Positions 1,850-15,643 of a DNA stretch of 64,000 nucleotides are shown here, one piece after another. The notes under the pieces were generated by a model. It had not been told where the DNA came from and ran no database searches. It saw nothing but the letters and a program-made list of their open reading frames with translations. Within the stretch, counting starts at the first letter, position 1. Every line of letters starts with the position of its first letter. Made by a program: the position numbers and the translations under genes. This DNA comes from an uncultured Armatimonadota bacterium. Its GTDB lineage: Bacteria; Armatimonadota; Fimbriimonadia; Fimbriimonadales; Fimbriimonadaceae. The DNA lies in the NCBI GenBank assembly GCA_903899015.1, contig CAIUHP010000030.1:1-64000 (forward strand), written 5' to 3'.

Positions 1850-2899
1850 TTATTGGCCCGAAATCACACAACGAAAACCAGCATTATTTGTCGCGGTGTT
1901 AGGGTCGCACTTACCTCGGGCTCCGACCATATACCGCACGCAATATTGATCGCTACACAGGAATGAACCGCCTCGCTGTACGCGTTTCGGCACATTGGGT
2001 TCGTCTGGATCAAAGCCGGTCAAGGGACCTCTTGGATCTTTCACGACTCGGCCATGGCTACCGGAATAGGCGTTGGGACGATACCAGTCTAAACACCATT
2101 CCCATACGTTGCCTGTCATGTCGTAAAGGCCATAGCCATTTGCCGGGTAGGAACCTACCGGACTTGGACCTGAGAACCCATCCTCGCACGTATTGCGATC
2201 AGGGAAGTGCCCTTGGAAAATGTTGGCCCGCCAAACGCCATGTGGCGTCAGTTCATTTCCCCATCCATAAAGCTTTCTGTCGAGTCCACCTCGTGACGCA
2301 TATTCAAATTCAGCTTCAGTGGGCAAGCGTTTCCCGACCCATGTTGCATAGGCGTTGGCATCTTCCCAAGCAACTTGAACCACCGGGTATTTCCCTTTTC
2401 CTGCGATGTTGCTCCAGGGGCCCAGTGGATGTTTCCAATTGGCTCCGGGAACGTATCGCCACCAGTTCGACGGGTTATCGAGGGGTACCGATTGTCGAGG
2501 GGCAGTGAAAACGACAGAACCACTTTTTAAGGAAGCGATCGGTACGCCGGGAAAGTCTCTTGGGTCCAGCTTTCGCTCAGCAACGGTCACGTATCCGGTC
2601 GCCTTTACGAACGCCGCGAATTGGTCGTTCGTTACGAGCTCTTTGTCAATGGCAAACCGATGGACATAAACTTTATGGACCGGGCCCGCATCAGGGAGGT
2701 TGGCTTTCTCAATCCCCATCCAAAAGGTTCCAGATGGAATGAGGGCCATTCCTGCCAGATCCGGTTCAATATTCTTTGGCGTGATGACCTTTGAAGATTG
2801 TCCCGCCGGTCGGCTGTGAGGAGGCATATCGCAGCACGGCATAGTTGCGTGATGGGCAGGACCTGCGATCAGGGTCAGATAGAAAAGGGTGCTGAGCAT
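1850..2899 (-). CDS. Formylglycine-generating enzyme (FGE/SUMF1 family), secreted
   Basis: This 349-aa protein begins with a hydrophobic stretch (residues 1-20) compatible with export. It then carries the FGE-sulfatase fold from about residue 48 (MALIPSGTFWMG, the family opening motif) to the end (NNAGFRCV). In aerobic FGE two cysteines spaced C-x4-C bind copper and oxidise a sulfatase cysteine to formylglycine. Here the motif is GGSFLCSDQYC, with both cysteines present (Cys315 and Cys320). Many family members lack them and have other roles, so this one looks catalytically competent. No sulfatase gene lies in the window, so its client would be encoded elsewhere. The gene is monocistronic. No clear Shine-Dalgarno precedes the ATG at 2899. 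Confidence 0.85.
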   Translation of the reverse strand: MLSTLFYLTLIAGPAHHATMPCCDMPPHSRPAGQSSKVITPKNIEPDLAGMALIPSGTFWMGIEKANLPDAGPVHKVYVHRFAIDKELVTNDQFAAFVKATGYVTVAERKLDPRDFPGVPIASLKSGSVVFTAPRQSVPLDNPSNWWRYVPGANWKHPLGPWSNIAGKGKYPVVQVAWEDANAYATWVGKRLPTEAEFEYASRGGLDRKLYGWGNELTPHGVWRANIFQGHFPDRNTCEDGFSGPSPVGSYPANGYGLYDMTGNVWEWCLDWYRPNAYSGSHGRVVKDPRGPLTGFDPDEPNVPKRVQRGGSFLCSDQYCVRYMVGARGKCDPNTATNNAGFRCVISGQ

Positions 2900-3014
2900 G
2901 GAGAAGGACTAAGGCAGAACGAGACCAGTCATATAGGTTTGACGATTGGGGTCTTGTTCATCGATTCTCTTACGCCAAATCGAGAGAAAAGGTTGAATGA
3001 TCTGAACGTGGTGT

Positions 3015-3227
3015 GTGATCCGTTCATTTTTGAAGCTCGTTGCGCAGGAACTTCGGATGGCTGTCGCTACCGGGACCAAGTCGTATGTCCAAAACCAACG
3101 AGAGCTTCTCGATTTCGAAGTGACACCGGAGGAGGAGACAATCGTGCCCAATTGGCAAACGGAGGTGGGCAGGATCATCATCGTTCCAACAAGTGAAGCA
3201 CTTGATTATGGAAGAGAACTCGAGTGA
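3015..3227 (+). CDS. Possible small protein, 70 aa, unknown
   Basis: This short open frame has a protein-like acidic C-terminal half (FEVTPEEETIVPNWQTEVG, then RIIIVPTSEALDYG). The composition is more plausible than the overlapping minus-strand frame. No family is recognised, there is no clear ribosome-binding site, and the start (GTG at 3015) is uncertain. It could equally be chance. It lies between the FGE homologue (divergent) and the pseudopilin promoter region. Confidence 0.3.
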   Translation: MIRSFLKLVAQELRMAVATGTKSYVQNQRELLDFEVTPEEETIVPNWQTEVGRIIIVPTSEALDYGRELE

Positions 3228-3395
3228 TTTGTTGGAAACACTTAAAACGTAAAAGCTCCCTCGCTTGTTTGTTAGGCCACGAAAGATGATTCCTTGCGAT
3301 GTTTGAGATACTCATTTGGATAGACCGGTAAATCGTTAACTTGATCCTTTAGTAGCTAAGGAATGCTTTTCCAGCAAAAAAATGAATTAATCGCC

Positions 3396-3425
3396 TTATC
3401 AAGACCAAGAAACCCGTTGTATATT
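3396..3425 (+). promoter_or_regulatory. Candidate sigma70-type promoter for the pseudopilin at 3514
   Basis: TTATCA (3396-3401) and TATATT (3420-3425) are separated by 18 bp and resemble -35 and -10 boxes. The region is AT-rich compared with its surroundings. A transcript from here would have an 80-nt leader containing the hairpin at 3453-3483. This is pattern matching only. The rest of the 286-bp gap (3228-3513) shows nothing else recognisable. Confidence 0.35.
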
Positions 3426-3452
3426 AAGCCTGCAAGTGCCTTGAATCGTTTA

Positions 3453-3483
3453 GAACCATCTCACAAAGAGTTGTGTTTGGTTC
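3453..3483 (+). promoter_or_regulatory. Two-part hairpin in the leader of the pseudopilin gene
   Basis: The outer stem is GAACCA (3453-3458) with TGGTTC (3478-3483). The inner stem is CACAA (3462-3466) with TTGTG (3471-3475), closed by an AGAG loop. It lies 30 bp before the start codon, without a downstream T-run, so it is more likely an mRNA leader structure or a protein site than a terminator. Confidence 0.4.
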
Positions 3484-3513
3484 GGAAAATCTCACTGCTG
3501 AGGTTCGCGAAAA

Positions 3514-4392
3514 ATGTTTCGAAAAGCTTTTACTTTAATTGAATTACTTGTCGTTATCGCCATCATCGCTATCCTAGCCGCTATCCTATTCCCGGTCTTT
3601 GCTCAGGCCAAGGAAGCTGCTAAGAAAACACTCGACTTATCTAACTCAAAACAACATGCGCTCGGTATACACATGTATGCTGGCGATTTTGATGACGTAT
3701 TCCCACGCGAGGTTTACACGAGCAACATCAACCTGTGGGGTTGGCAAACTCCAACAACTTGGCGGGAAGCCATTCTCCCTTATGTGAACAATGGCAAGAC
3801 TATCTACCAAGATGGGTCGAAAACGCAGACATTTGCTCAGGGTGGTATTTGGGATACTCCTGCCAAAGTCGGTTCTCGTGGAGTCTATCAAGCAAACAAC
3901 AACTTGATGCCTGCCCAGTGCCAATGGGACAATGCAGCCGGTAATTCCCGTTGCGACCAAGATACAAACACTGGTCTAGCGACTGGGAAAGCTCCATTCC
4001 CATCCGTGTCCATGACGGAGCTTGACGCTCCGGCTCAGATTTCCGCTACTTGGACGGTTGGCGTCAACCCGGACTGGGGCGCCTCAGGCGACCAAGCCGA
4101 TTCGTCGTGGTGGTGGTGGGGCGGTGCTCAATGGCCACCCGTATTCACCGGACCAACCTCGCATGAGCAATGGGACGCTGATGCCACCTATTGGCCAAGC
4201 TGGGCAATGCCCCGTTATCGCTACGCAAAAGGACTCAACTCGGCCTTTGCGGATGGTCATGCTAAGTTCATCAAGAAGGGCGCATTCAATTGGTGCAAGT
4301 ACGTTTACGTGAACGGCAAGACGACCAACTGGAACGATAACTGGGATTGGTTGTTCAGCCCAGGCAACGCATGCGCGGCATTTGCACGATGA
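3514..4392 (+). CDS. Type II/IV pseudopilin-like protein, tryptophan-rich
   Basis: This 292-aa protein has a classic prepilin signal: short basic leader MFRKA, then [16 protein letters not shown] with Glu5 of the mature protein and a hydrophobic helix. It should be cleaved and N-methylated by a prepilin peptidase such as the one at 37511. Near the C-terminus, [12 protein letters not shown] matches the DGH-type end motif of large prepilin-like families common in Planctomycetes and Armatimonadota. The mature domain is strikingly rich in Trp, including a WWWW run. The gene lies far from the main pilus locus. Its stop overlaps the ATG of a lipoprotein gene (ATGA at 4389-4392), implying coupled translation. 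The precise role (pilus subunit or secretion pseudopilin) is not determinable. Confidence 0.85.
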
Positions 4393-4652
4393 TCACACGC
4401 TTGCTTATCGGTATTGGGTTGGCGATTGCTTGTGCAGGCTGTTCAAGTGAAGACAACGGCAACGTCGTCGAGGGCGCTAAGTCTGCGGCGGCCGCGCCAA
4501 AGTCTGCCAGCGACCTGAAAAAGGACATGCCGCCGGAAGCCCGTGCGGCTGCCGCTGCATCGATGGGCTCTGCTCAAGCCCAAACGCAGATGAATTCAGA
4601 TCCAGCGCGTGTCCACGCAATGGAAATGATGAAGAAGCAACGGGGGCAATAG
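4389..4652 (+). CDS. Small lipoprotein, unknown function
   Basis: This 87-aa protein begins [18 protein letters not shown], a type II signal peptide with lipobox ACAGC, so the mature chain should start at a lipidated cysteine. After that comes a low-complexity Ala/Ser/Lys region and a Met/Gln-rich end. The frame is open farther upstream (to 4347). The ATG at 4389 is preferred because it gives the signal peptide directly and makes a 4-bp ATGA overlap with the preceding pseudopilin gene. The coupling suggests the two proteins act together at the envelope. No homologous family is recognised. Confidence 0.75.
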
Positions 4653-5205: not shown

Positions 5206-6834
5206 TTAAAAGAGCCCTGAGATCTTGCCGTTCTCATCCACGTCGATTACAAAGGCGGTAGGTGCCTTTCCTAATCCCGGCATGAGCATGATTTCGCCGC
5301 AGATCGCGACAAGAAATCCAGCCCCCGCGCTCAGTCGGATTTCTCGAACGTGCAGGGTGAAACCAGTTGGCGCATTGAGCAGAGTTGGGTCGTCCGACAA
5401 ACTGTATTGCGTCTTTGCAACACAGACCGGCAAGTTTCCAAACCCGTTCTTTTCGAGCCATTCCAGACTCTTCTTTGCTTTGTCTGAGAGTTCTACAGTC
5501 GCTCCACCATAAACCTTGGTGACGATGGCCAGTAGTTTTTCCTCGGTCGTGTTTTCCGGCTTATAGAGTGAGGTGAAGGTTGACGGTTGATCAGCGACTT
5601 CAACCACGAGTTCGGCTAAGTCGGTACACCCTGAACCGCCCCCTCCCCACGGATTGCAGGTGACGGCCTTGACACCAATTTCAGCGCACAGATGAATCAG
5701 AGTTTTGTGATCTTCAAGGTTGTCTTCCGCCCGTTGATTGATGCCAACGACCACTGGAGGACCATAACTCTGGAGGTGACGAATATGTTGCTTTAGGTTT
5801 TGCACGCCAACGGAGAGGTCGCCCTTACCGTGGTGTTGTAAAGCTCGAATGGTGGCAACAAGAACGATGGCGTCCGGTCCATGTCCTAACCGAGGACAGA
5901 GGATGTTTAAGAACTTTTCGGCTCCTAAATCCGCTCCGAACCCGGCTTCGGTGACGGTGTAATCGGCTAAACCGAGCGAACACTTGGTACCGACAATCGA
6001 AGAACAGCCATGGGCGATGTTGCCAAATGGTCCGCCATGAACAAATGCTGGGCCACCTTCCATGGTTTGCACGATATTGGGACGGATCGCACTCACGAGT
6101 AATGCGGCCATGGCACCGTGCGCCTTTAAGTCACGAGCATAAACGGGCTGCCGTTTCTTGTTTCTTCCGACCACGATCGCACCGAGCCGCTCCTTTAGAT
6201 TGGCGAGGGAGGTGGAAAGGCACAAAATCGCCATGATTTCGCTGGCCGGTGTGATGACAAATCCGTCCTCTCGGACCTGACCATTTCCACTTCCGAGCCC
6301 GACTACGATGCTTCTAAGTGCCCGGTCGTTCATGTCGATGGTTCTTGGCCAAAGATCTCCTCGTGTATCAATCTCCAACTCATTGCCAAAATTGATGTGC
6401 GAGTCCAGCATGGCGCTGAGCAAGTTGTGAGCAGCCGTGATCGCAGGGAAGTCGCCATTGAAGAATAAATTGATATCCTCCATCGGCAGAACTTGGCTGT
6501 ATCCGCCACCGCAGGCGCCACCTTTTATGCCAAAAATAGGGCCGAGCGCGGGTTCTCGAATGGCCGGAATGGCCATTTTGCCGATCTTCTGAAGTCCCTG
6601 TGCGAGACCAACTGTGACGGTTGATTTTCCTTCTCCCGACGGAGTTGGGCTAACGGCGGTGACGAGGATCAGTTTGCCTTTCCGAGTGCTGGAAAGGGTT
6701 GTGACTGCATTTTGAAGTAATTTGGCTTTGTAGCGTCCAAGTGGTTCATAGTCGTCGGTCGTTAGTCGGGCATCCTTGGCAACGTCCGTAATGTCGCGAA
6801 GTGTGGCGCTTTGTGCGATGTCTAGATTGGTCAT
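5206..6834 (-). CDS. fhs: Formate--tetrahydrofolate ligase
   Basis: This cytoplasmic enzyme makes 10-formyl-THF from formate, THF and ATP. At 542 aa it is close to the usual 550-560. The phosphate-binding loop TPSGEGKST is at residues 64-72. Other family-typical stretches are REPALGPIFGIKGGACGGGY (about 95-115), DINLFFNGDFPAITAAHNLL, FVHGGPFGNIAHGCSS and FGADLGAEKF. The C-terminal MLMPGLGKAPTA is also characteristic. Its start is 7 bp after the stop of the formate dehydrogenase catalytic gene, so the two are almost certainly co-transcribed. In this setting the ligase would exchange C1 units with formate that the dehydrogenase produces or consumes. No folD is next to it. Confidence 0.97.
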   Translation of the reverse strand: MTNLDIAQSATLRDITDVAKDARLTTDDYEPLGRYKAKLLQNAVTTLSSTRKGKLILVTAVSPTPSGEGKSTVTVGLAQGLQKIGKMAIPAIREPALGPIFGIKGGACGGGYSQVLPMEDINLFFNGDFPAITAAHNLLSAMLDSHINFGNELEIDTRGDLWPRTIDMNDRALRSIVVGLGSGNGQVREDGFVITPASEIMAILCLSTSLANLKERLGAIVVGRNKKRQPVYARDLKAHGAMAALLVSAIRPNIVQTMEGGPAFVHGGPFGNIAHGCSSIVGTKCSLGLADYTVTEAGFGADLGAEKFLNILCPRLGHGPDAIVLVATIRALQHHGKGDLSVGVQNLKQHIRHLQSYGPPVVVGINQRAEDNLEDHKTLIHLCAEIGVKAVTCNPWGGGGSGCTDLAELVVEVADQPSTFTSLYKPENTTEEKLLAIVTKVYGGATVELSDKAKKSLEWLEKNGFGNLPVCVAKTQYSLSDDPTLLNAPTGFTLHVREIRLSAGAGFLVAICGEIMLMPGLGKAPTAFVIDVDENGKISGLF

Positions 6835-6841
6835 AGGGGTC

Positions 6842-9517
6842 TCAGTTTTGGGATGCTTCCAGTAATCGCTCGATCCTTACGGCGGTTACCTTGTATTCGG
6901 GGGAGCTTACGACTCGGTCTCGGAAGCTACTGGTCACACGGTTCATAAAGACGCGTGGATCGTGGAACGTGGCGAATAATTCGGTTCGGTTAACTGTCGG
7001 GGTGATCCATACGGGCAGAACGGCCGATCCGTATCGGCTAGCGATTCTCACCGACTCACCGTCTTCGATGTGGAGTTGTTGGGCATCGTCCGGGTTCATC
7101 TCAAGTCGGTCGGTCGGTCGGATTCTGTTGTTATCCGTTCGCTCGGTCATAGTGCCTGCATTAAATTGAGCGAGCGTGCGACCCGTGTTTAGCAAGTATG
7201 GGTACTCCGAGTTTGTGACTTCAAGAGTTGGAAAATATTCAATCTTCGAGAACTTCGCAAGATCGCCGATGGGGAAGTTCTTGGTATGAAGAATAGTTGT
7301 GCCGGGGTGATCAGCGGTTGGGCATGGCCACTGCAAACCATTCTCTTCAATCCGGTCGTAGGAAATGCCTGCCCCAGGCTTCCAAACTCGCTGTACTTCG
7401 GACCAAATCTCGGCGGGCGACGCAAAGTTGAAATGCGACCCGTAACCCATATGAGTAGCAAGTTCTTTAATGATTTGCCAATCTGGCTTAGATTGCCCGA
7501 TGACGGGCAGACATTGCCGAACCCGTTGCACGCGCCGCTCGGAGTTCATGAAGGTCCCGTCTTTCTCATACGATGTGCAGCACGGAAGGAAGACGTTTCC
7601 GAATTCTTTGGCGGTTTCGCTCAAGAAGATGTCCTGAATGACGAGTAGGTCCAGTTTGCGCAGTCCTTCCGCCGTCTCTTTGGCGTTTGGACTCGAAAAG
7701 TACACATCGTAACCGATGGCATACAAGGCTTTAAGTGATCCTGCAACCGATGCGTCCAGCATCTTCATCCAATTCAGCCCCGGTTCGCGAGGAATGGGCA
7801 CGCCCCAGACCTCTTCAAAGAGAGGTGCAGATGTTTCGATGGGAGTGTAACCGGCTAAGTTTGACGGTTCACATCCCATGTGGGCGGACCCTTGAACGTT
7901 GTTTTGCCCGCGGAGTGGATTTTCGCCCGATCCGGGTTTGCCCAAATTTCCGGTGAGCAAGGCGAGATTCACCAAGCAACGAACCCCTTCCGTGCCTTGG
8001 GTATGTTCGGTCATTCCCAAGCCATGAAAGATCATCGCAGGTTTGGCGGTCGCGTAGATCTTTGCTGCTTTGCGGATGTCGTCAGCGGAAACGCCCGCGA
8101 TCTGCGCAGCGCGTTCTGGCGTCCATTCGGCTAAGAAGGCGCGAAAGCCTTCTAGGTCTTGAGTTCGCTGAACGATGAATTCGTGGTCGCAAAGGTCCGC
8201 TACCAAAATGGCGTGAGCGATAGCATGGAACGTTGGAATGTTGGTACCAGGACGTATCTGAAGATGTACATCGGCAAGTTGAGCCAACTCGGTCTTTCGT
8301 GGATCGACAACGACAAGTTGAGCTCCTTTTAGGACTTGCTGCTTGATTCGCGCTCCAACAATCGGGTGATTCTCGGTTGGGTTGGCTCCACAAATCATGA
8401 AGCCGTGAGCTAATTCGATGTCGTTAAAAGAGTTGGTTGAGGCACCGGTTCCGAGAGTGGACTTAAGTGCGCTTGCGCTCGGAGCGTGGCAAACACGAGC
8501 ACAGCAGTCCACATTGTTGGAGCCAATAACCACTCGGGCAAACTTCTGAGCAAAATAGTTTTCTTCGTTGGTTGCTCGCGACGAACCTAAGACGCCGATT
8601 GCCGATGGGCCGTGTTCTTGCAAAATGGATTTGAGCCTAGACCCAATAAAGGCATAGGCTTCGTCCCAACTTACTTCTTTCCAGGTTCCGTCGATGCGGA
8701 TCATGGGTTCCGTAACGCGGTCTTTGGCGTGAGCAAACCGGTGCGCGTAGCGTCCTTTGACACATAGATGCCCTTTATTGACGGGGGCGTCCTTTACTGG
8801 TCGAGCTACGATGACTTCGCCGTCGCGAACACCGACTTCCATTTCGCATCCGGTTCCGCAGTAAGCACAAGTTGTTCGCGTCCACGAGGTTGGCTGTCCT
8901 CTTTCGACAACCAAGCGATCCTGAATCGCTCCGGAAGGGCAAGTATCGGCACAAGCACCGCAACTAACGCACGAACTTGAGAGCAGGCTATCGCCTTTAT
9001 CGGGACGTATCTCCGTCCGATCTCCCCGATTCCAGACCCGCCAAACGAATTGGCCCTGGAGTTCGTTGCAGATTCTCACGCAACGGTAGCAGTGGACGCA
9101 CTTGTCCATATCGACTTGGATATACGGGTGGTCAAAGTCTTTGAAGCCACCACTACGTGCACCGCTCGGCTCGATTCCGTAGTGCTTGAGGTATCGATGG
9201 AACTCGATGTGATCGTCTAGTGGCTCATTTGCCGGATAGTTTGCGGCGAGCAGGCGAAGATTCGTTCGGCGATCTGCTTCTGTGGCATCCGAATGCGTCA
9301 GGATGCTCATGCCTTCTGCAAGCGGAGTCGTACATGCGGCCGCTAATCGATCTTGACCTTCAATTTCGACGCTACAAAGGCGGCAAGCTCCGGTCGGAAG
9401 AATTCTAGAGTCATTACATAGAGTGGGGACTTCTAAGCCAACTTGCCGGATCGCGGACAGTATGGAAACACCATCCGGAAATTCATGCTCTTGCTGATTG
9501 ATTCTTACATGAAGCAC
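6842..9517 (-). CDS. fdhA: NAD-dependent formate dehydrogenase, molybdopterin catalytic subunit (Cys form)
   Basis: The catalytic subunit interconverts formate and CO2. From the GTG at 9517 it has 891 aa. The order of domains is as follows. First is a 2Fe-2S ferredoxin-like domain with Cys34, 45, 48 and 62. Next are two 4Fe-4S motifs (CVHCYRCVRIC and CVSCGACADTC). Then comes a further 4Fe-4S motif, CAYCGTGC, and the large bis-MGD domain. The active-site residue is Cys343 in RVCHAPS, where other enzymes have selenocysteine. The GTG is chosen over the longer frame (to 9589) because GAGGAG sits 8 nt upstream and the 2Fe-2S domain then starts at once. It overlaps the upstream NADH-binding subunit gene by 13 bp. 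The layout resembles Rhodobacter FdsA. Confidence 0.93.
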   Translation of the reverse strand: MLHVRINQQEHEFPDGVSILSAIRQVGLEVPTLCNDSRILPTGACRLCSVEIEGQDRLAAACTTPLAEGMSILTHSDATEADRRTNLRLLAANYPANEPLDDHIEFHRYLKHYGIEPSGARSGGFKDFDHPYIQVDMDKCVHCYRCVRICNELQGQFVWRVWNRGDRTEIRPDKGDSLLSSSCVSCGACADTCPSGAIQDRLVVERGQPTSWTRTTCAYCGTGCEMEVGVRDGEVIVARPVKDAPVNKGHLCVKGRYAHRFAHAKDRVTEPMIRIDGTWKEVSWDEAYAFIGSRLKSILQEHGPSAIGVLGSSRATNEENYFAQKFARVVIGSNNVDCCARVCHAPSASALKSTLGTGASTNSFNDIELAHGFMICGANPTENHPIVGARIKQQVLKGAQLVVVDPRKTELAQLADVHLQIRPGTNIPTFHAIAHAILVADLCDHEFIVQRTQDLEGFRAFLAEWTPERAAQIAGVSADDIRKAAKIYATAKPAMIFHGLGMTEHTQGTEGVRCLVNLALLTGNLGKPGSGENPLRGQNNVQGSAHMGCEPSNLAGYTPIETSAPLFEEVWGVPIPREPGLNWMKMLDASVAGSLKALYAIGYDVYFSSPNAKETAEGLRKLDLLVIQDIFLSETAKEFGNVFLPCCTSYEKDGTFMNSERRVQRVRQCLPVIGQSKPDWQIIKELATHMGYGSHFNFASPAEIWSEVQRVWKPGAGISYDRIEENGLQWPCPTADHPGTTILHTKNFPIGDLAKFSKIEYFPTLEVTNSEYPYLLNTGRTLAQFNAGTMTERTDNNRIRPTDRLEMNPDDAQQLHIEDGESVRIASRYGSAVLPVWITPTVNRTELFATFHDPRVFMNRVTSSFRDRVVSSPEYKVTAVRIERLLEASQN

Positions 9518-10983
9518 GGTTGAAGCTCCTCGCTGAATTTTTCCAATACACTCGCGGCAAGAACCGAGAGGCCGGTTCCATGTCCGCACAAGCTTGTCCT
9601 TCTTAAGGCGTCGAGAATGGATCTCAACTCGCTTTCTTCACGTGAAGTAAGGGGTTGTCCCTTACTCGCCTGACTCAGTAGATTTTGTATTCGCCGACTA
9701 CCATGTCTACAAGGTGTGCACTTGCCACATGATTCTTGAGCTCCGAACTCAAATTCGTGAGTCAAGAGGTCGATCATACGAGTATTGCTGTCAAATGCGA
9801 CGATGCCCCCGTGACCGATAGCTCCTCCGACTTGGCGTAACTCCTCGAATCCAAAAAGAGTATCGAACTCTGAAGGGTGGAGCAAACCAACGATTGGTCC
9901 GCCAATCATGAGAGCTTTAATATCTCCGGTTCTTAATCCACCTCCGATCTCTTCTACGATCGTTCTCACGGGGATACCGAACTCAACTTCATAGAGGCCC
10001 GGTCGGTTAAAAAGGCTGTTGAGTGAGATCGCTTTCGTGCCTCGACTCTTGCTGAATCCGAGATTTGCGTAAGCTTCGGAACCATGAAGAATGATCCAAG
10101 GGATGCTTGAGAGAGTCTCTACGTTGTTGATGAGGGTCGGGCAATGGAAGAGTCCCGACTCAGTTGGGAACGGCGGCCTTGCTCTGACCTCGGGCCTTCG
10201 ATGTTCAATCGAGTTGAGCAGGGAAGTCTCCTCACCGCAAACGTAGCTTCCTTGCCCAATAACTAATTCAATTTCAAAGTTGCCCAGGATGCCCGCACTC
10301 TTTACTTCTGAGAGCGCAATCTCAAGCTTGGATTGGGCGACCGGATATTCCTTTCGCAGATAGATATATCCCTTATCGGCCCCCACTGCGAAAGCAGAAA
10401 TGGCAAGGGCTTCGATGAGTCGGTGAGGGACTCGTTCGATAATAAAGCGATCGATATAGGAGCCATGATCTCCCTCATCGGCGTTTGCGATCACGTACTT
10501 AGGGAGTATCGTCTGGTTTGCAACCGCCATCCATTTCTTTCCTGCTGGAAACCCGGCCCCTCCCCTGCCCCGGAGATTGGAGCGATCTACTTGTTCGATC
10601 ACCCAATGAGAAGTGTGTTGCCGAGCCGTCTCGAGGGCCTCGTACCCGCCGTGCGACCGATAGCTTGCTAAGTCGACCATGGATTGATCGACGACACCCA
10701 TTAGCACGATCGCTTCTTTGGAGCAGACCTCAACGTGAGGTTGATCGAGAGTTTCCGTACTCGATGGGGATGCGTAGCACTTTCCCAAGCAATATACGGG
10801 CGGCCATTGGCTCATGGCCATGCGCCATCGCTCTTGATTCTGCTGTTTAGCCGCAAAGCAGGATGTTCCGCGACAAACGCGATGGTCAAGAGTTACATCG
10901 CTCAGCGAGTAAAACGACTCAACTTCTGGACCAGTCTGCGCGGGTCTCATGGCCTGACAACTTCGTCTCGACTGTTTAGCCAC
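9505..10983 (-). CDS. Formate dehydrogenase NADH-binding subunit (fused NuoE/NuoF-like)
   Basis: This is the diaphorase subunit that passes electrons between formate dehydrogenase and NAD+. The 492-aa protein fuses two modules. The N-terminal thioredoxin-like 2Fe-2S domain has Cys37, 42, 65 and 69 in the NuoE pattern C-x4-C...C-x3-C. The NuoF-like part has NLRGRGGAGFPAGKKW (FMN/NADH loop), CGEETSLLNSIEHRRPEVR, and a C-terminal 4Fe-4S motif ESCGKCTPCR with a distal Cys in TSLCGHG. This is the architecture of FdsB-type subunits, so the enzyme is a soluble NAD-linked complex. The GTG at 10983 begins the listed frame; the ATG at 10950 is an equally possible start. It is first in the three-gene formate operon and divergent from the GH20 gene. 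Confidence 0.92.
   Translation of the reverse strand: MAKQSRRSCQAMRPAQTGPEVESFYSLSDVTLDHRVCRGTSCFAAKQQNQERWRMAMSQWPPVYCLGKCYASPSSTETLDQPHVEVCSKEAIVLMGVVDQSMVDLASYRSHGGYEALETARQHTSHWVIEQVDRSNLRGRGGAGFPAGKKWMAVANQTILPKYVIANADEGDHGSYIDRFIIERVPHRLIEALAISAFAVGADKGYIYLRKEYPVAQSKLEIALSEVKSAGILGNFEIELVIGQGSYVCGEETSLLNSIEHRRPEVRARPPFPTESGLFHCPTLINNVETLSSIPWIILHGSEAYANLGFSKSRGTKAISLNSLFNRPGLYEVEFGIPVRTIVEEIGGGLRTGDIKALMIGGPIVGLLHPSEFDTLFGFEELRQVGGAIGHGGIVAFDSNTRMIDLLTHEFEFGAQESCGKCTPCRHGSRRIQNLLSQASKGQPLTSREESELRSILDALRRTSLCGHGTGLSVLAASVLEKFSEELQPCFM
9526..9531 (-). promoter_or_regulatory. Ribosome-binding site fixing the fdhA start
   Basis: On the minus strand GAGGAG is followed after 8 nt by the GTG at 9517-9515. 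The site lies inside the end of the upstream subunit gene. It supports translation from 9517 rather than from the longer frame. Confidence 0.75.
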
Positions 10984-11099: not shown

Positions 11100-13340
11100 A
11101 TGTTCGCTAGTACGATTTTGGCCGGATTGTTGATTCTTGGAAGCCAAGTAACTGGAAACGGTCAATCTGACGTGATTAGTTTTGGCCACCCTAAACTGGC
11201 TGAGATCGCCCTCAGAGAGAAAGTGCCTAACGTTGTGCCTTTGGCGCGATCAGTTATCTCCAAGACGACTGGGATGCTCTCACTTCCCCGAACAATCTAT
11301 GTGGCAGATAAGACACTCTTCCGTGTTGCCCAAGTGCTTTCCGATGAAATATTCGCGTCTACGGGGTCTCGATGTCAGGTGACTTCTAAACGCACCCCTA
11401 GAACGATCCTATTAGGATTGTCAAGTAAAGGAAGCCCTGAAAGCTACTTTCTCTCGGTCAGGAAGGACGTGACTATTACGGCCGCGACCCCTCAGGGAGT
11501 CAGTTGGGGTTCTGTCACCTTACTTCAAATCATAAGGTCTACTAATAGGCAAGCGTACGTCCCTGAATGCGAGATCATCGATCATCCAGGCAAGCCTTAT
11601 CGAGGGCTTATGATCGACGTGGCTCGGCGATGGCACTCGGTGAATGTGCTGAAACAATGCGTCGAGCTATGCCACTTTTATAAGCTGAATTACCTCCAGC
11701 TTCACCTTTCCGACGATCAAGCATTTACGTTCCCAAGCAAATCGTTTCCTGAGATCAACCGCAGTAACCAGCATGGCGGGCCGAGCTACACCGTCGCGGA
11801 ACTCAAGGATCTTGTGCAATATGCGGACGACCGGGGAGTCGCGATTGTGCCTGAGATGGACATTCCGGGCCATTCGGCGACTTTGAATCGCACCATGCCC
11901 GATCTATTCAAGATCAAGGGGACCCAACCATACGAACATCATGCGTCGATAAATTTCGTGAACGAGAAGGTGCTGAGGGCAGTCGATACTCTCATTGGGG
12001 AAATGTGCGAAGTCTTTCATTCCTCGCCCTATTTTCACATGGGTGGTGATGAAGCCGATATTGCTCTTGCAGACCAACATCCGGACTTCCAAGCAGCTTT
12101 CAAAAAACTCGGTTTGCCGCCCAAATCCCAGCAAGAACTGTTTCGCCGATTTATTGGCCAAGTCGACGAGATGGTGAAGCGACGTGGCAAGAAGCTTATT
12201 GTTTGGGAAGGCTTTGGAAGGGATTTAAAGTCGCGATTTCCGATTCCAAAAGATGTTCTCGTAATGGAGTTTGAGAACGCTTATTATCTGCCGCAAGAGC
12301 TTTTGAAGGATGGTTTCTCCGTCGTGAATGCTTCTTGGACCCCGCTTTACGTCGTGAATCGCCATGTTTGGCCCGCAAAGGCTGTTTATGATTGGAATGT
12401 TTCGAAATTTGGCCGTTTTTCGAATCTGTATCAAACGACTGAATGGACAAAGGTTTCAGGGCCTCGACTTACTCAGGCCATTCAGGGAGCCCAGGCTTGC
12501 TCATGGGAAGGTCCCGAAGAGAACGAAATCGAAACCCTGAGACGAATCGTTGCTGCAATGTCGGAGCGTATTTGGAATCTCGAGACCGGTGGAAGCTATC
12601 TCGAATTTTCCGAAAGGTCATCCCGAGCCGATCAGATTCTGGAAAAGCTGATTCATAGAGTCGAGATTAGATCGAGCAAACTCGATGCGGTCGATCCTTC
12701 TGGATTCGATGTAGCCTGCTTTGCCAAGCCTCTTCGAATTTCGCTTCATCCTTTCCAACCCGGGACCGTGCGATTTACGAAGGATGGAAAGCCTCCGACC
12801 GGAGTTTCGCCAATCTACCAAGGACCTATTGAAATAACTCAAACCACCACGATTAGGGCGGCTGAATTTGATGTGTCTGGGAAACAACAGGGCTTCGAAA
12901 GTTCAAAGACTTTTTATTACGTGGCTTCGCACACTGCAAATCTAGCCGTTGGTAAGAAAGTGACGGTTTCCGGTGGGACACAAGGTGGACAAGTTCCCGA
13001 ATTGGTAGTCGATGACAACTTGGATCTTGCTTCCAGTTGGTGGGCAGGTCCCGCTCCGCAGTGGCTCCAAGTCGATCTTGGACGTCCGACGAAAGTAAGT
13101 CGAATCGAGGTGTTTCCCTATTGGGATGGCTCCCGCTACTACCAGTACACCGTTGAGATCAGCGCTGATGGAAAGTCTTGGACTAAGGTCGCCGATCGGT
13201 CGCACAATACGGTTCCCTCGAGCAATCAAGGCGATGAAATCCGAATTTCACCGCAGAATGTTCGATTTGTAAAAGTGAATATGATCCGCGGTAGCGCCAA
13301 CGATAGCGTCCACCTCGTTGAAGTTCGCGTTTGGAAATGA
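11100..13340 (+). CDS. Secreted GH20 beta-N-acetylhexosaminidase with C-terminal discoidin domain
   Basis: This 746-aa exported enzyme cleaves terminal N-acetylhexosamines, for example from chitin or peptidoglycan fragments. A signal peptide (residues 1-22) is followed by the GH20b-type N-terminal domain and the GH20 barrel from about 165 (YRGLMIDVARRW). The substrate-assisted Asp-Glu pair is D317-E318 in FHMGGDEAD. LQLHLSDDQAF and VPEMDIPGHS are also typical. After about residue 545 there is a chitobiase C-terminal-like beta domain (FTKDGKPPTG...TIRAAEFD). The end (about 610-746) is an F5/8 type C carbohydrate-binding domain (NLAVGKKVTVSG...LQVDLGRPTKVSRIEV). The ATG is preceded by GGAGGG. 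A GH32-type gene follows 47 bp downstream. Confidence 0.93.
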   Translation: MFASTILAGLLILGSQVTGNGQSDVISFGHPKLAEIALREKVPNVVPLARSVISKTTGMLSLPRTIYVADKTLFRVAQVLSDEIFASTGSRCQVTSKRTPRTILLGLSSKGSPESYFLSVRKDVTITAATPQGVSWGSVTLLQIIRSTNRQAYVPECEIIDHPGKPYRGLMIDVARRWHSVNVLKQCVELCHFYKLNYLQLHLSDDQAFTFPSKSFPEINRSNQHGGPSYTVAELKDLVQYADDRGVAIVPEMDIPGHSATLNRTMPDLFKIKGTQPYEHHASINFVNEKVLRAVDTLIGEMCEVFHSSPYFHMGGDEADIALADQHPDFQAAFKKLGLPPKSQQELFRRFIGQVDEMVKRRGKKLIVWEGFGRDLKSRFPIPKDVLVMEFENAYYLPQELLKDGFSVVNASWTPLYVVNRHVWPAKAVYDWNVSKFGRFSNLYQTTEWTKVSGPRLTQAIQGAQACSWEGPEENEIETLRRIVAAMSERIWNLETGGSYLEFSERSSRADQILEKLIHRVEIRSSKLDAVDPSGFDVACFAKPLRISLHPFQPGTVRFTKDGKPPTGVSPIYQGPIEITQTTTIRAAEFDVSGKQQGFESSKTFYYVASHTANLAVGKKVTVSGGTQGGQVPELVVDDNLDLASSWWAGPAPQWLQVDLGRPTKVSRIEVFPYWDGSRYYQYTVEISADGKSWTKVADRSHNTVPSSNQGDEIRISPQNVRFVKVNMIRGSANDSVHLVEVRVWK

Positions 13341-13387: not shown

Positions 13388-15643
13388 ATGTGTCACTCGT
13401 GGGCCGGCCGGGTTTTGGGTTGTTTGATCGTTTTAGGATTGCAATCGATGGGGATGGCAGATCAGATGGTTGATAAAACGTTGGTGGTCTGGGCAGCGCC
13501 AAGGAACCTTAACCAGAGGGCGGGGTCGGCATTGACGCTCGACGACGGACATTCGCACTTCGATGGCATTGTGTTTGGCGAGATCGCGGAGCGGAGGTGG
13601 ATGGCGGGAAGTGATATGTACTCTCGCACAAATCGCGACCAATCCAACTGGCACTCAGAAGGAAGCAAAGACTTCGTTCAAATAGCGATTGTCTACCGAG
13701 GCAAGCAAGTGACTCTCTATCGAAACGGGGTCGAGTACGCCCAATACACCCTTGCGAACCCGGGTCTTAAATTCGGAGAAGCGGTGAACGTACTGTTTGG
13801 ACGTCGACACCTGGATGCAAAAGACCCCGATAACTCATTTACGGGACAGATTAAAGATGCCCGAATTTACGATCGAGCGCTCGATATTTCGGCGATCGCT
13901 CATCTACAGCCAGGAAAGCTTTCCGGAGTCAAGCCATGGGCTTGGTGGTCTTTTGCCGACAAGGGATTGATCGAGCAAACCGGCCGCTTTACTGAGATGA
14001 GCCTGATTGGGGACGTAAAGCTAGGTAAAGAAGGCTTGATACTTGGCGGCAAAGGGGCGACTCTTTTATGTCGAGCACTGGGTTCGGGACCAACATCCAA
14101 AGTTCCAGGCCAGTGGTCCGTTACCGACGCGGTTCCTGATGAAGTGGTTCAAGCCTCCCGGCAACTTCGCGAAAGGCTACTTGCTGATCCGACTCGGCCT
14201 GGTTATCACTTCTGCGTTCCGGAAGATCAGGGCATGCCAGGCGATCCTAATGGCGCGTTCTATGCGAATGGGCGATATCACCTGATGTACCTGTACAACC
14301 GAACTGGTTCAGGATTTTGCTGGGGGCACATTTCGAGCTCGGACCTCGTGCATTGGCGGCATCATCCGGATGCGATTGGACCAGGCGCGGGCGACGACGG
14401 CTGCTTCAGCGGGGGAGCTTTCTTAGATTCAGATGGCGTCGCCTATTTGTCCTATTGGATGCTTTGGGGGGCAAAAGGAATTGGCCTCGCCAAGAGTACG
14501 GATTCAAACTTCGATCACTGGACAAAGTCACCATCCAATCCGGTGATTCGCTCAACCGAATGGGGTGTCACCGAGATGCAAGGGAAGGGAGGTAAGCCGA
14601 TTTATGTCGGTTCAGCAGATCCTTCAAACATTTGGAAGAAAGACGGTCATTACTACATGCTCACCGGTAGCCTCGCAGTGCTCAACAAAGTTGGTCGAAA
14701 TCCAGACTCACCCATTTCTGAGCAAGGGGATCGACTCTATCTCTTTGAGTCGGACGACCTCAAGAAGTGGAATTACAAACACGTCTTTTATGAGCGCAAT
14801 CCGGCTTGGACGGATCGAAGCGAAGACGACATGTGCCCGAGCTTCCTGCCGTTACCGTCGGGACCCGGTGGAGGCTCGCCAAGTGGTAAGCATCTTCTGC
14901 TTTTCATTAGTCACAACAAGGGCTGCCAATACTATGTTGGAGATTATCGAGACGATCATTTCTTTCCCGATAACCATGGGCGCATGAGCTGGGTGGATAA
15001 CACATATTTCGCACCCGAAGCGCTTGTGGATGGCCAAGGGCGGCAGATCATGTGGGCTTGGCTTACGGACAATCCGACCGGCGATAGGGAGCGGGGTTGG
15101 TCAGGAGTCTATGGTCTCCCGCGAACCCTTTGGCTCGGAGACGATGGAACCCTTAGGATGGCACCGGTCCAAGAACTCGATTCGCTGCGAGGAAAAGAAG
15201 CAGAGTGGAACATCGCGAGCGTCATACCCATGCTCCAAGGAGTCGACAAAACTTCTTGTGAGGTTCAAACGGAATGGACCGTTGGAGCGTCCAGTCAATG
15301 TGGTCTCAACGTTCGAGCCTCGTCGGACGGTAAGGAATACACCAGCATATACTACGATGCTAAGACTCATGAGCTAGTTTTTGATGCCACCCATAGTGGT
15401 GGAGATGGCCGCACGGTCGTCGAGCGTGCTCCATTAACTCTCAAACCAGGCGAGAACCTCAAGCTCAGAGTATTCATCGACAAATCGGTCATTGAAGTCT
15501 TCGCAAATGACCGTCAGGCGATTGGGCGGCGGGTGTATCCGGTGGGTAAAGACAGCACGGAAATCAGCCTATTTGAAAGCGGCACGGATCATGTGCTCCA
15601 CCATCTTGTAGGATGGACCATGAATCCGTCGAACCCGTATTAG
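13388..15643 (+). CDS. Secreted GH32-type glycosidase with N-terminal LamG-like domain, divergent active site
   Basis: This is a 751-aa exported protein (signal peptide about 1-24). Residues about 30-180 form a concanavalin/LamG-like fold ending FTGQIKDARIYDRALD. Residues about 275-600 are a five-bladed GH32 propeller with GDPNGAFYANGRYHLMY, where Asp286 is the expected nucleophile. The C-terminal beta sandwich ends LRVFIDKSVIEVFANDRQA, a hallmark of GH32. Two standard motifs differ: RDP reads SADP (Asp411), and the acid/base motif EC reads MC at 482-483, with Glu479 three residues earlier. It is thus a fructan-hydrolase relative with altered specificity, or one using Glu479. Its end overlaps the convergent TIGR03790-like gene by 4 bp. 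Confidence 0.85.
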   Translation: MCHSWAGRVLGCLIVLGLQSMGMADQMVDKTLVVWAAPRNLNQRAGSALTLDDGHSHFDGIVFGEIAERRWMAGSDMYSRTNRDQSNWHSEGSKDFVQIAIVYRGKQVTLYRNGVEYAQYTLANPGLKFGEAVNVLFGRRHLDAKDPDNSFTGQIKDARIYDRALDISAIAHLQPGKLSGVKPWAWWSFADKGLIEQTGRFTEMSLIGDVKLGKEGLILGGKGATLLCRALGSGPTSKVPGQWSVTDAVPDEVVQASRQLRERLLADPTRPGYHFCVPEDQGMPGDPNGAFYANGRYHLMYLYNRTGSGFCWGHISSSDLVHWRHHPDAIGPGAGDDGCFSGGAFLDSDGVAYLSYWMLWGAKGIGLAKSTDSNFDHWTKSPSNPVIRSTEWGVTEMQGKGGKPIYVGSADPSNIWKKDGHYYMLTGSLAVLNKVGRNPDSPISEQGDRLYLFESDDLKKWNYKHVFYERNPAWTDRSEDDMCPSFLPLPSGPGGGSPSGKHLLLFISHNKGCQYYVGDYRDDHFFPDNHGRMSWVDNTYFAPEALVDGQGRQIMWAWLTDNPTGDRERGWSGVYGLPRTLWLGDDGTLRMAPVQELDSLRGKEAEWNIASVIPMLQGVDKTSCEVQTEWTVGASSQCGLNVRASSDGKEYTSIYYDAKTHELVFDATHSGGDGRTVVERAPLTLKPGENLKLRVFIDKSVIEVFANDRQAIGRRVYPVGKDSTEISLFESGTDHVLHHLVGWTMNPSNPY

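Follow-up and report, generated by a model that had tools for sequence, protein, structure and literature searches.

The 64,000-nucleotide stretch analysed here (hereafter, the window; positions 1–64,000 of contig CAIUHP010000030.1, assembly GCA_903899015.1) derives from an uncultured bacterium of the family Fimbriimonadaceae, phylum Armatimonadota, and carries on its minus strand a compact set of three genes, fdhB, fdhA and fhs, which encode the two subunits of a predicted formate dehydrogenase (FDH) and a formate–tetrahydrofolate (THF) ligase. The set is best explained, with a probability of roughly 70%, as a formate-handling operon of an aerobic heterotroph, combining formate oxidation with the partitioning of one-carbon units. 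Two of the genes, fdhA and fhs, adjoin in ten family genomes, where they occur in either of two opposite orders.

Organization and predicted products of the fdhB-fdhA-fhs set

The three open minus-strand frames span positions 9505–10983 (492 amino acids), 6842–9589 (915 amino acids) and 5206–6834 (542 amino acids), and plus-strand genes flank the set on both sides. Because aligned relatives begin further inward, and because an AGGAG motif stands about 8 nt ahead of a GTG in fdhA, the starts of the first two genes were shifted: fdhB (9505–10950) begins at the ATG at 10950 in a frame open from 10983 and encodes 481 residues, and fdhA (6842–9520) begins at the GTG at 9520 in a frame open from 9589 and encodes 892 residues. 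The overlap between fdhB and fdhA is thus likely to be 16 nt, instead of 85, and a gap of 7 nt separates fdhA from fhs (5206–6834, 542 residues). The tight clustering of FDH subunits with fhs described in an initial annotation of the window is borne out by this arrangement. The fhs gene is the only copy in the genome to which the window belongs (G000; 4.94 Mb in 119 contigs, 99.87% complete).

FdhA is the catalytic subunit. It scores 761.4 bits against the NCBIfam model for formate dehydrogenase alpha (TIGR01591, cut-off 666.25) and lies far under the NCBIfam cut-offs for nitrate reductases and NuoG. Its fold matches and Cys columns indicate a bis-molybdopterin guanine dinucleotide (bis-MGD) enzyme with an N-terminal 2Fe-2S site and two ferredoxin-type 4Fe-4S sites. 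By sequence, the closest solved relatives are alpha chains of NAD-dependent FDHs (9wxb_B and 6tg9_A); the predicted model (pLDDT 76.6) is closest to 9ktl_A, 7vw6_A and 6tg9_A, with TM-scores of 0.85–0.86 by query length, and in structure comparison it resembles RaFDH, MeFDH1 and RcFDH. The active-site Cys and His lie in the motif CARVCH (C367 and H368 in the 915-residue frame; codons at 8486–8491), and the Arg that is catalytic in FDHs lies in LRGQNNVQG (R560 in the same frame; codon at 7910–7912). In an alignment of 38 rows the His and Arg are invariant (38/38) and the Cys is found in 37; the subunit is of the Cys type, as had been annotated. Identity across the genera of this branch of FdhA is held at 62–75%.

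The remaining row belongs to a genome of another Armatimonadota family (G123; locus L074, contig G123:C72, fdhA at 1943–4618), in which an in-frame TGA falls exactly at the active-site Cys; this is probably a selenocysteine form, and fhs lies convergent behind it. Selenocysteine was considered for the FdhA proteins of the window's family as well and rejected, since their in-frame TGAs fall outside the gene, either upstream of the start or, at locus L070, at its very end.

The His/Cys3 4Fe-4S motif, which FdsA-type FDHs and NuoG bear in the segment corresponding to that between the 2Fe-2S and ferredoxin domains, is absent from the window's FdhA. Fewer than three Cys are present in this segment in 31 of the 38 aligned rows, the window included (all 15 family rows aligned, G085, G092, ten Thermoplasmata, two Acidobacteriota, one Sandaracinaceae and one Erythrobacter), and at least three are present in the other seven (L049 and L074–L079). 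The His/Cys3 cluster probably lies off the main electron path. The site is an accessory feature, and the assignment of FdhA as an FDH does not require it.

FdhB is a single fused protein composed of NuoF, with its flavin mononucleotide (FMN) and 4Fe-4S domains (PF01512 and PF10589), and a shrunken NuoE-like domain, and its model (pLDDT 83.1) resembles FdsB of NAD-dependent FDH and NuoF. The N-terminal domain of about 95 residues (10669–10950) carries the cysteine pattern known from NuoE, C-x4-C...C-x3-C, with Cys invariant in 16 aligned sequences. On its own this part scores 10.3 bits against Pfam 2Fe-2S_thioredx, under the cut-off of 24.8; a profile of it returned four matches in the PDB, all weak (best E 0.037) and all 24-kDa chains of the NuoE/FdsG/HoxE type. 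The NuoE/NuoF-type subunit of the earlier description is this one fused protein, in which the NuoE-like part is putative. Fhs matches PRK13505 over its full length (residues 2–542; 756.8 bits, cut-off 652) and PF01268 with 746 bits.

Taken together, FdhA and FdhB would form a soluble NAD+-linked FDH containing molybdenum or tungsten, in which electrons would pass from formate at the bis-MGD site by way of the 4Fe-4S clusters and the 2Fe-2S cluster to FMN and on to NAD+. Fhs would join formate to THF at the expense of ATP, or run in reverse with formation of ATP. The three genes, probably expressed as one operon, may thereby place a branch point on a single formate pool, which could be oxidized with a yield of NADH or captured as 10-formyl-THF; one-carbon units in excess could leave through Fhs and then FDH as CO2. 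In this predicted form, the pairing of NADH-yielding formate oxidation with formate activation on THF that had been proposed for the locus is supported.

Linkage of FDH and Fhs among relatives

Linkage and co-occurrence were assessed in 151 genomes, comprising the window's own and 150 relatives. A genome was counted as an FDH carrier where its best match was FdhA-like at an identity of at least 38%, and 27 genomes are carriers by this definition: 17 in the family, two in other families of the order and eight elsewhere in the phylum. The order fdhB-fdhA-fhs is found in six family genomes (G000, G053, G041, G050, G072 and G031), which represent five genera besides the window's own. Four further genomes from three genera (G045, G035, G061 and G037) have the order fhs-fdhA with no fdhB and gaps of about 10–30 nt; no NuoF-like protein was found in carriers with this order except one at about 38% identity, presumably that of complex I. 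Adjacency of fdhA and fhs thus extends to 10 of the 17 family carriers, and to neither of the two carriers in other families of the order. Of the eight other carriers of the phylum, where several loci are short or cut at contig ends, G140 has the order fhs-fdhA and G123 the convergent arrangement described above. The named contigs from other phyla show no fhs within the available flanks of fdhA, and the Thermoplasmata loci are mostly fdhB-fdhA without fhs.

That fdhBA and fhs came to adjoin by an accident of gene order in one genome might be suspected from the window's genus, where fdhA is found in only one of 20 genomes and where the same locus in G013 has fhs without fdhBA. The chance of this is negligible: recurrence of the linkage in 10 of 17 family carriers and in two opposite gene orders, involving five further genera for the one order and three for the other, together with the adjoining genes in two carriers beyond the family, G140 and G123, refutes it.

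The two functions are also associated across genomes. Fhs scores above its cut-off in 25 of the 27 FDH carriers (the exceptions being G054 and G134) versus 42 of the 124 other genomes (Fisher p 1.2e-8, ignoring kinship), and within the order in 18 of 19 carriers versus 24 of 94 others (p 1.5e-8, likewise). FDH implies Fhs, and the converse fails.

The fhs gene of two family carriers was also seen in the company of NAD(P) transhydrogenase genes: it follows pntB in G030 (L091, 695–3725), and in G060 (L070, 10010–15819) fdhA and fhs are separated by pnt genes, hinting at a redox role.

Within the genus, fdhA is confined to the window's genome, and Fhs is above cut-off in 10 of the 19 other members. 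Outside the operon, a GH20 hexosaminidase-like gene (11100–13340) and a GH32 gene (13388–15643), both on the plus strand, mark a locus common to the window and G013: the equivalent G013 locus (L088) comprises fhs, a GH43 gene and then GH20 and GH32 genes whose products are 64% and 70% identical to those of the window. As this locus carries fhs and lacks fdhBA, the FDH genes were either lost in G013 or gained in the window's genome. In the Fhs tree the window falls among members of its genus with weak support (86/10), and in the FdhA tree, which includes one erroneous entry (L087_G012, NuoG-like and placed on a very long branch), it pairs with G053 (98/96). A recent foreign origin of the operon was considered and rejected, the GC content (0.517–0.530) and the GC content at third codon positions (0.529–0.552) of fdhA, fdhB and fhs being similar to those of neighbouring genes.

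Near the left end of the window is an ISL3-family transposase gene (PF01610; 20–1108), just past which 79 bp (1154–1232) are 98.7% identical to a segment of G005 (L084, 11512–11590), probably an insertion-sequence end. In the public records, contig JADZEW010000016.1 (L033) is titled as a Methanoregulaceae archaeon; its match values equal those of G030, a member of this bacterial family, and the label looks wrong.

Direction of formate flow and maturation of the enzyme

The genome context was surveyed with individual protein families. MoaA is encoded by G000 and by each of the 17 FDH carriers scanned, but by only 5 of 15 FDH-less members of the genus. FolD is matched in all 32 genomes scanned (31 above cut-off) and so is GcvP, the P protein, which was the sole glycine cleavage component searched, in both cases with or without FDH. 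The haem-copper oxidase subunit COX1 is found in 23 of 23 genomes, the window's own included. PurU is above its cut-off in none of the 17 FDH carriers scanned and in one of 23 genomes overall, which leaves Fhs as the one enzyme found to link formate with 10-formyl-THF in the carriers. The single PurU (G018:C36:35964-36785) belongs to a genus member without FDH and Fhs, where one formyl-THF/formate enzyme may have taken the place of another. FolD, GcvP and MoaA, from the gene sets that the initial annotation had named for checking, are all encoded in the window's genome. With MoaA and FolD present, the refutation proposed there, by a genome devoid of molybdopterin synthesis genes and of folD, does not apply. 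FdhD, likewise named for checking, is absent, which had not been anticipated.

The direction in which formate flows through the operon admits more than one account. The genes may act mainly as a one-carbon overflow valve, in which Fhs works in reverse (10-formyl-THF + ADP + Pi to formate + ATP) and FDH oxidizes its product to CO2, gaining NADH, rather than drawing chiefly on external formate. We regard this as a possible but clearly less probable account than a general branch point. It draws on the presence of FolD, and of GcvP, which supplies methylene-THF from glycine, in every genome scanned for them, on the lack of PurU, the usual deformylase, in the carriers, and on the asymmetry of co-occurrence, since FDH almost never without Fhs and Fhs often without FDH is what would be expected if FDH consumes the product of Fhs; the proximity of fhs to transhydrogenase genes in G030 and G060 also suits it. 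These counts, however, fit formate assimilation as well, and the direction of Fhs is set by pools that are invisible in sequence. The opposite direction, raised as a possibility in the initial annotation, is entry into the reductive glycine route, in which FdhAB would reduce CO2 to formate, and Fhs, FolD and glycine synthase would carry out its fixation. All of the genes searched for from the catalogue of this route are present, FDH, Fhs, FolD and GcvP being encoded together in the window's genome. FolD and GcvP are equally present in genomes that lack FDH, so their presence does not discriminate. As an electron donor for the reduction of CO2, NADH is weak, and both the haem-copper oxidase and the polysaccharide hydrolases encoded next to the operon suggest an aerobic, heterotrophic organism. 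Oxygen-tolerant CO2-reducing FDHs do exist, and a paper on Desulfovibrio desulfuricans suggests that the route may be possible in aerobes (PMC7547702). With an NAD-linked FDH in a cell equipped with a haem-copper oxidase, net CO2 fixation is nonetheless unlikely; among the metabolic options considered it ranks last, and we give the reductive glycine reading very little weight.

A use of the enzyme in formate oxidation is suggested by a relative outside the phylum. An Acidobacteriota contig (L040; JAFAOW010000247.1, 6270–14972) encodes a stand-alone FdhA of the window's clade, 55% identical, with no fhs in its flanks. It is flanked, with all genes on one strand, by a kynureninase (477 bits against a cut-off of 246) and, on its other side, by an FAD monooxygenase and a Cyclase-family protein weakly similar to arylformamidase; an amidohydrolase gene lies further upstream. 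Arylformamidase releases formate, and from the kynureninase and arylformamidase-like neighbours this FdhA probably burns formate derived from tryptophan breakdown. No PF02634 (FdhD) match was found in the corresponding genome (G156).

Several points weigh against reading the set as a formate-handling operon. In 7 of the 17 family FDH carriers fhs does not adjoin fdhA: G030 and G057 have an fdhA of the window's branch but fhs on a separate contig, G058, G064 and G075 have the two on different contigs, they are about 4 kb apart in G060, and fhs was not found in G054, which is 74% complete. The Fisher tests of co-occurrence take no account of kinship. The arylformamidase-like gene of the Acidobacteriota contig reaches only 27 bits against a cut-off of 223. 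Finally, FdhD (PF02634) has no match in G000 or in any of the 36 family genomes scanned, including all 17 FDH carriers, while 8 of 14 control genomes match.

Beyond the family, FdhD is present in G085 and absent from G092, and it was found in 15 of 27 further genomes that bear relatives of the window's FdhA, many of them incomplete; 9 of the 12 genomes labelled Thermoplasmata or Thermoplasmatota among the 27 have it. For the bis-MGD FDHs of studied bacteria, sulfuration of the FdhD type has been called essential. Accordingly, fdhD is reported to be essential for MeFDH1 activity in Methylorubrum extorquens (PMC13197769), E. coli FdhF is inactive without FdhD (PMC10609526) and the Rhodobacter capsulatus FDH depends on FdsC, a member of the FdhD family (PMC10609526, PMC6239281). 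A review remarks without detail that some FDH-expressing organisms have no fdhD, so that FdhD-less FDH carriers have already been noted in print. Among titles and abstract openings, no paper was found on this clade or on an fdh-fhs operon within it; a Fimbriimonas metagenome-assembled genome from methanol-fed soil is not among the bins reported as having complete FDH genes (PMC10994693).

The missing FdhD could mean that FdhA is not an active FDH, its cofactor remaining unsulfurated or another substrate being taken. The absence from 36 of 36 family genomes and the precedent of E. coli FdhF (PMC10609526) speak for this, but a score above the FDH equivalog cut-off, conserved catalytic residues, an identity of 62–75% held across the genera of the branch and the recurring link to fhs make it improbable. 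FdhD is a maturation factor and does not belong to the enzyme itself, so its absence leaves the assignment of an FDH-like function standing and qualifies only the full placement among NAD+-dependent Mo/W FDHs of the FdsABG/MeFDH1 kind. We would tentatively suggest instead that in this family the FDH is matured independently of FdhD, either by a different sulfur donor or with no sulfido ligand, and that in the relatives without fdhB the FdhA encoded directly behind fhs takes formate directly from Fhs and passes electrons to NuoEF of complex I or another carrier, as a minimal one-carbon burning module; this proposal as a whole is more likely wrong than right. Two candidate substitutes for FdhD were considered and are not common to the carriers' fdhA loci: a rhodanese gene at a NasC-like locus of G000 (L131), and XdhC. 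The latter comes from G054 (L068, 3068–9354), where the three genes downstream of fdhA encode, in turn, a 2Fe-2S protein, a molybdoenzyme of the xanthine dehydrogenase type and the XdhC sulfuration chaperone, a possible lead to cofactor sulfuration without FdhD. Both stay as leads.

The two operon forms point to a direct branch point at which aerobic heterotrophs would turn formate either to energy gain or to the supply of one-carbon units. With 17 of 17 carriers lacking FdhD and yet having a well-conserved enzyme and a recurring fhs operon, the family offers a small natural setting for tracing the missing sulfuration step, or for showing that the enzyme can do without it.

Comparison with known formate dehydrogenases

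The beta subunit of MeFDH1 (Fdh1AB of Methylorubrum extorquens AM1; PDB codes: 7vw6, 8j83) is a fusion of the NuoE-NuoF type, which FdhB resembles, its own NuoE-like part being putative. Like the predicted FdhAB, MeFDH1 is a two-subunit alpha-beta NAD-linked FDH with Cys at the active site, and its alpha subunit matches the FdhA model with a TM-score of 0.85 and 32% identity in the structural alignment. The part preceding the NuoF domain is shorter in FdhB, the match beginning at residue 101 versus residue 186 of the MeFDH1 chain 7e5z_B. MeFDH1 is reported to require FdhD (PMC13197769), whereas the window's genome has none.

The best fold and sequence matches to FdhA are provided by the FdsABG(CD) systems of R. 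capsulatus, R. aestuarii and Cupriavidus necator (PDB codes: 6tg9, 9ktl, 6vw7), with which the window shares a NuoG-like N-terminus on the bis-MGD subunit and a NuoF-type beta subunit. In these systems FdsG is a separate subunit, whereas the NuoE-like part is fused within FdhB, and FdsC is described as required (PMC10609526, PMC6239281), whereas no match to its family was found here. The Cys-rich segment of 9wxb_B is likewise absent from the window's FdhA.

Bacillus subtilis ForCE1 (PDB code: 8rqz) also has a NuoG-like N-terminus on its catalytic subunit, and ForC works without NuoF, which is relevant to the fdhB-less relatives. At the catalytic Cys, ForC reads CQ; its partner is a DUF1641 protein, and fdhD is present in B. 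subtilis (PMC8808070). FdhA of the window has CH, and no such partner was seen. At the level of the pathway, FDH, Fhs, FolD and the glycine cleavage P-protein are encoded both in the window's genome and in Desulfovibrio desulfuricans G11, for which the reductive glycine pathway has been described. That organism is an anaerobic sulfate reducer growing on hydrogen (PMC7547702), whereas the operon described here encodes an NAD-linked FDH in a genome with a haem-copper oxidase, among relatives in which FolD and GcvP were matched in every genome scanned.

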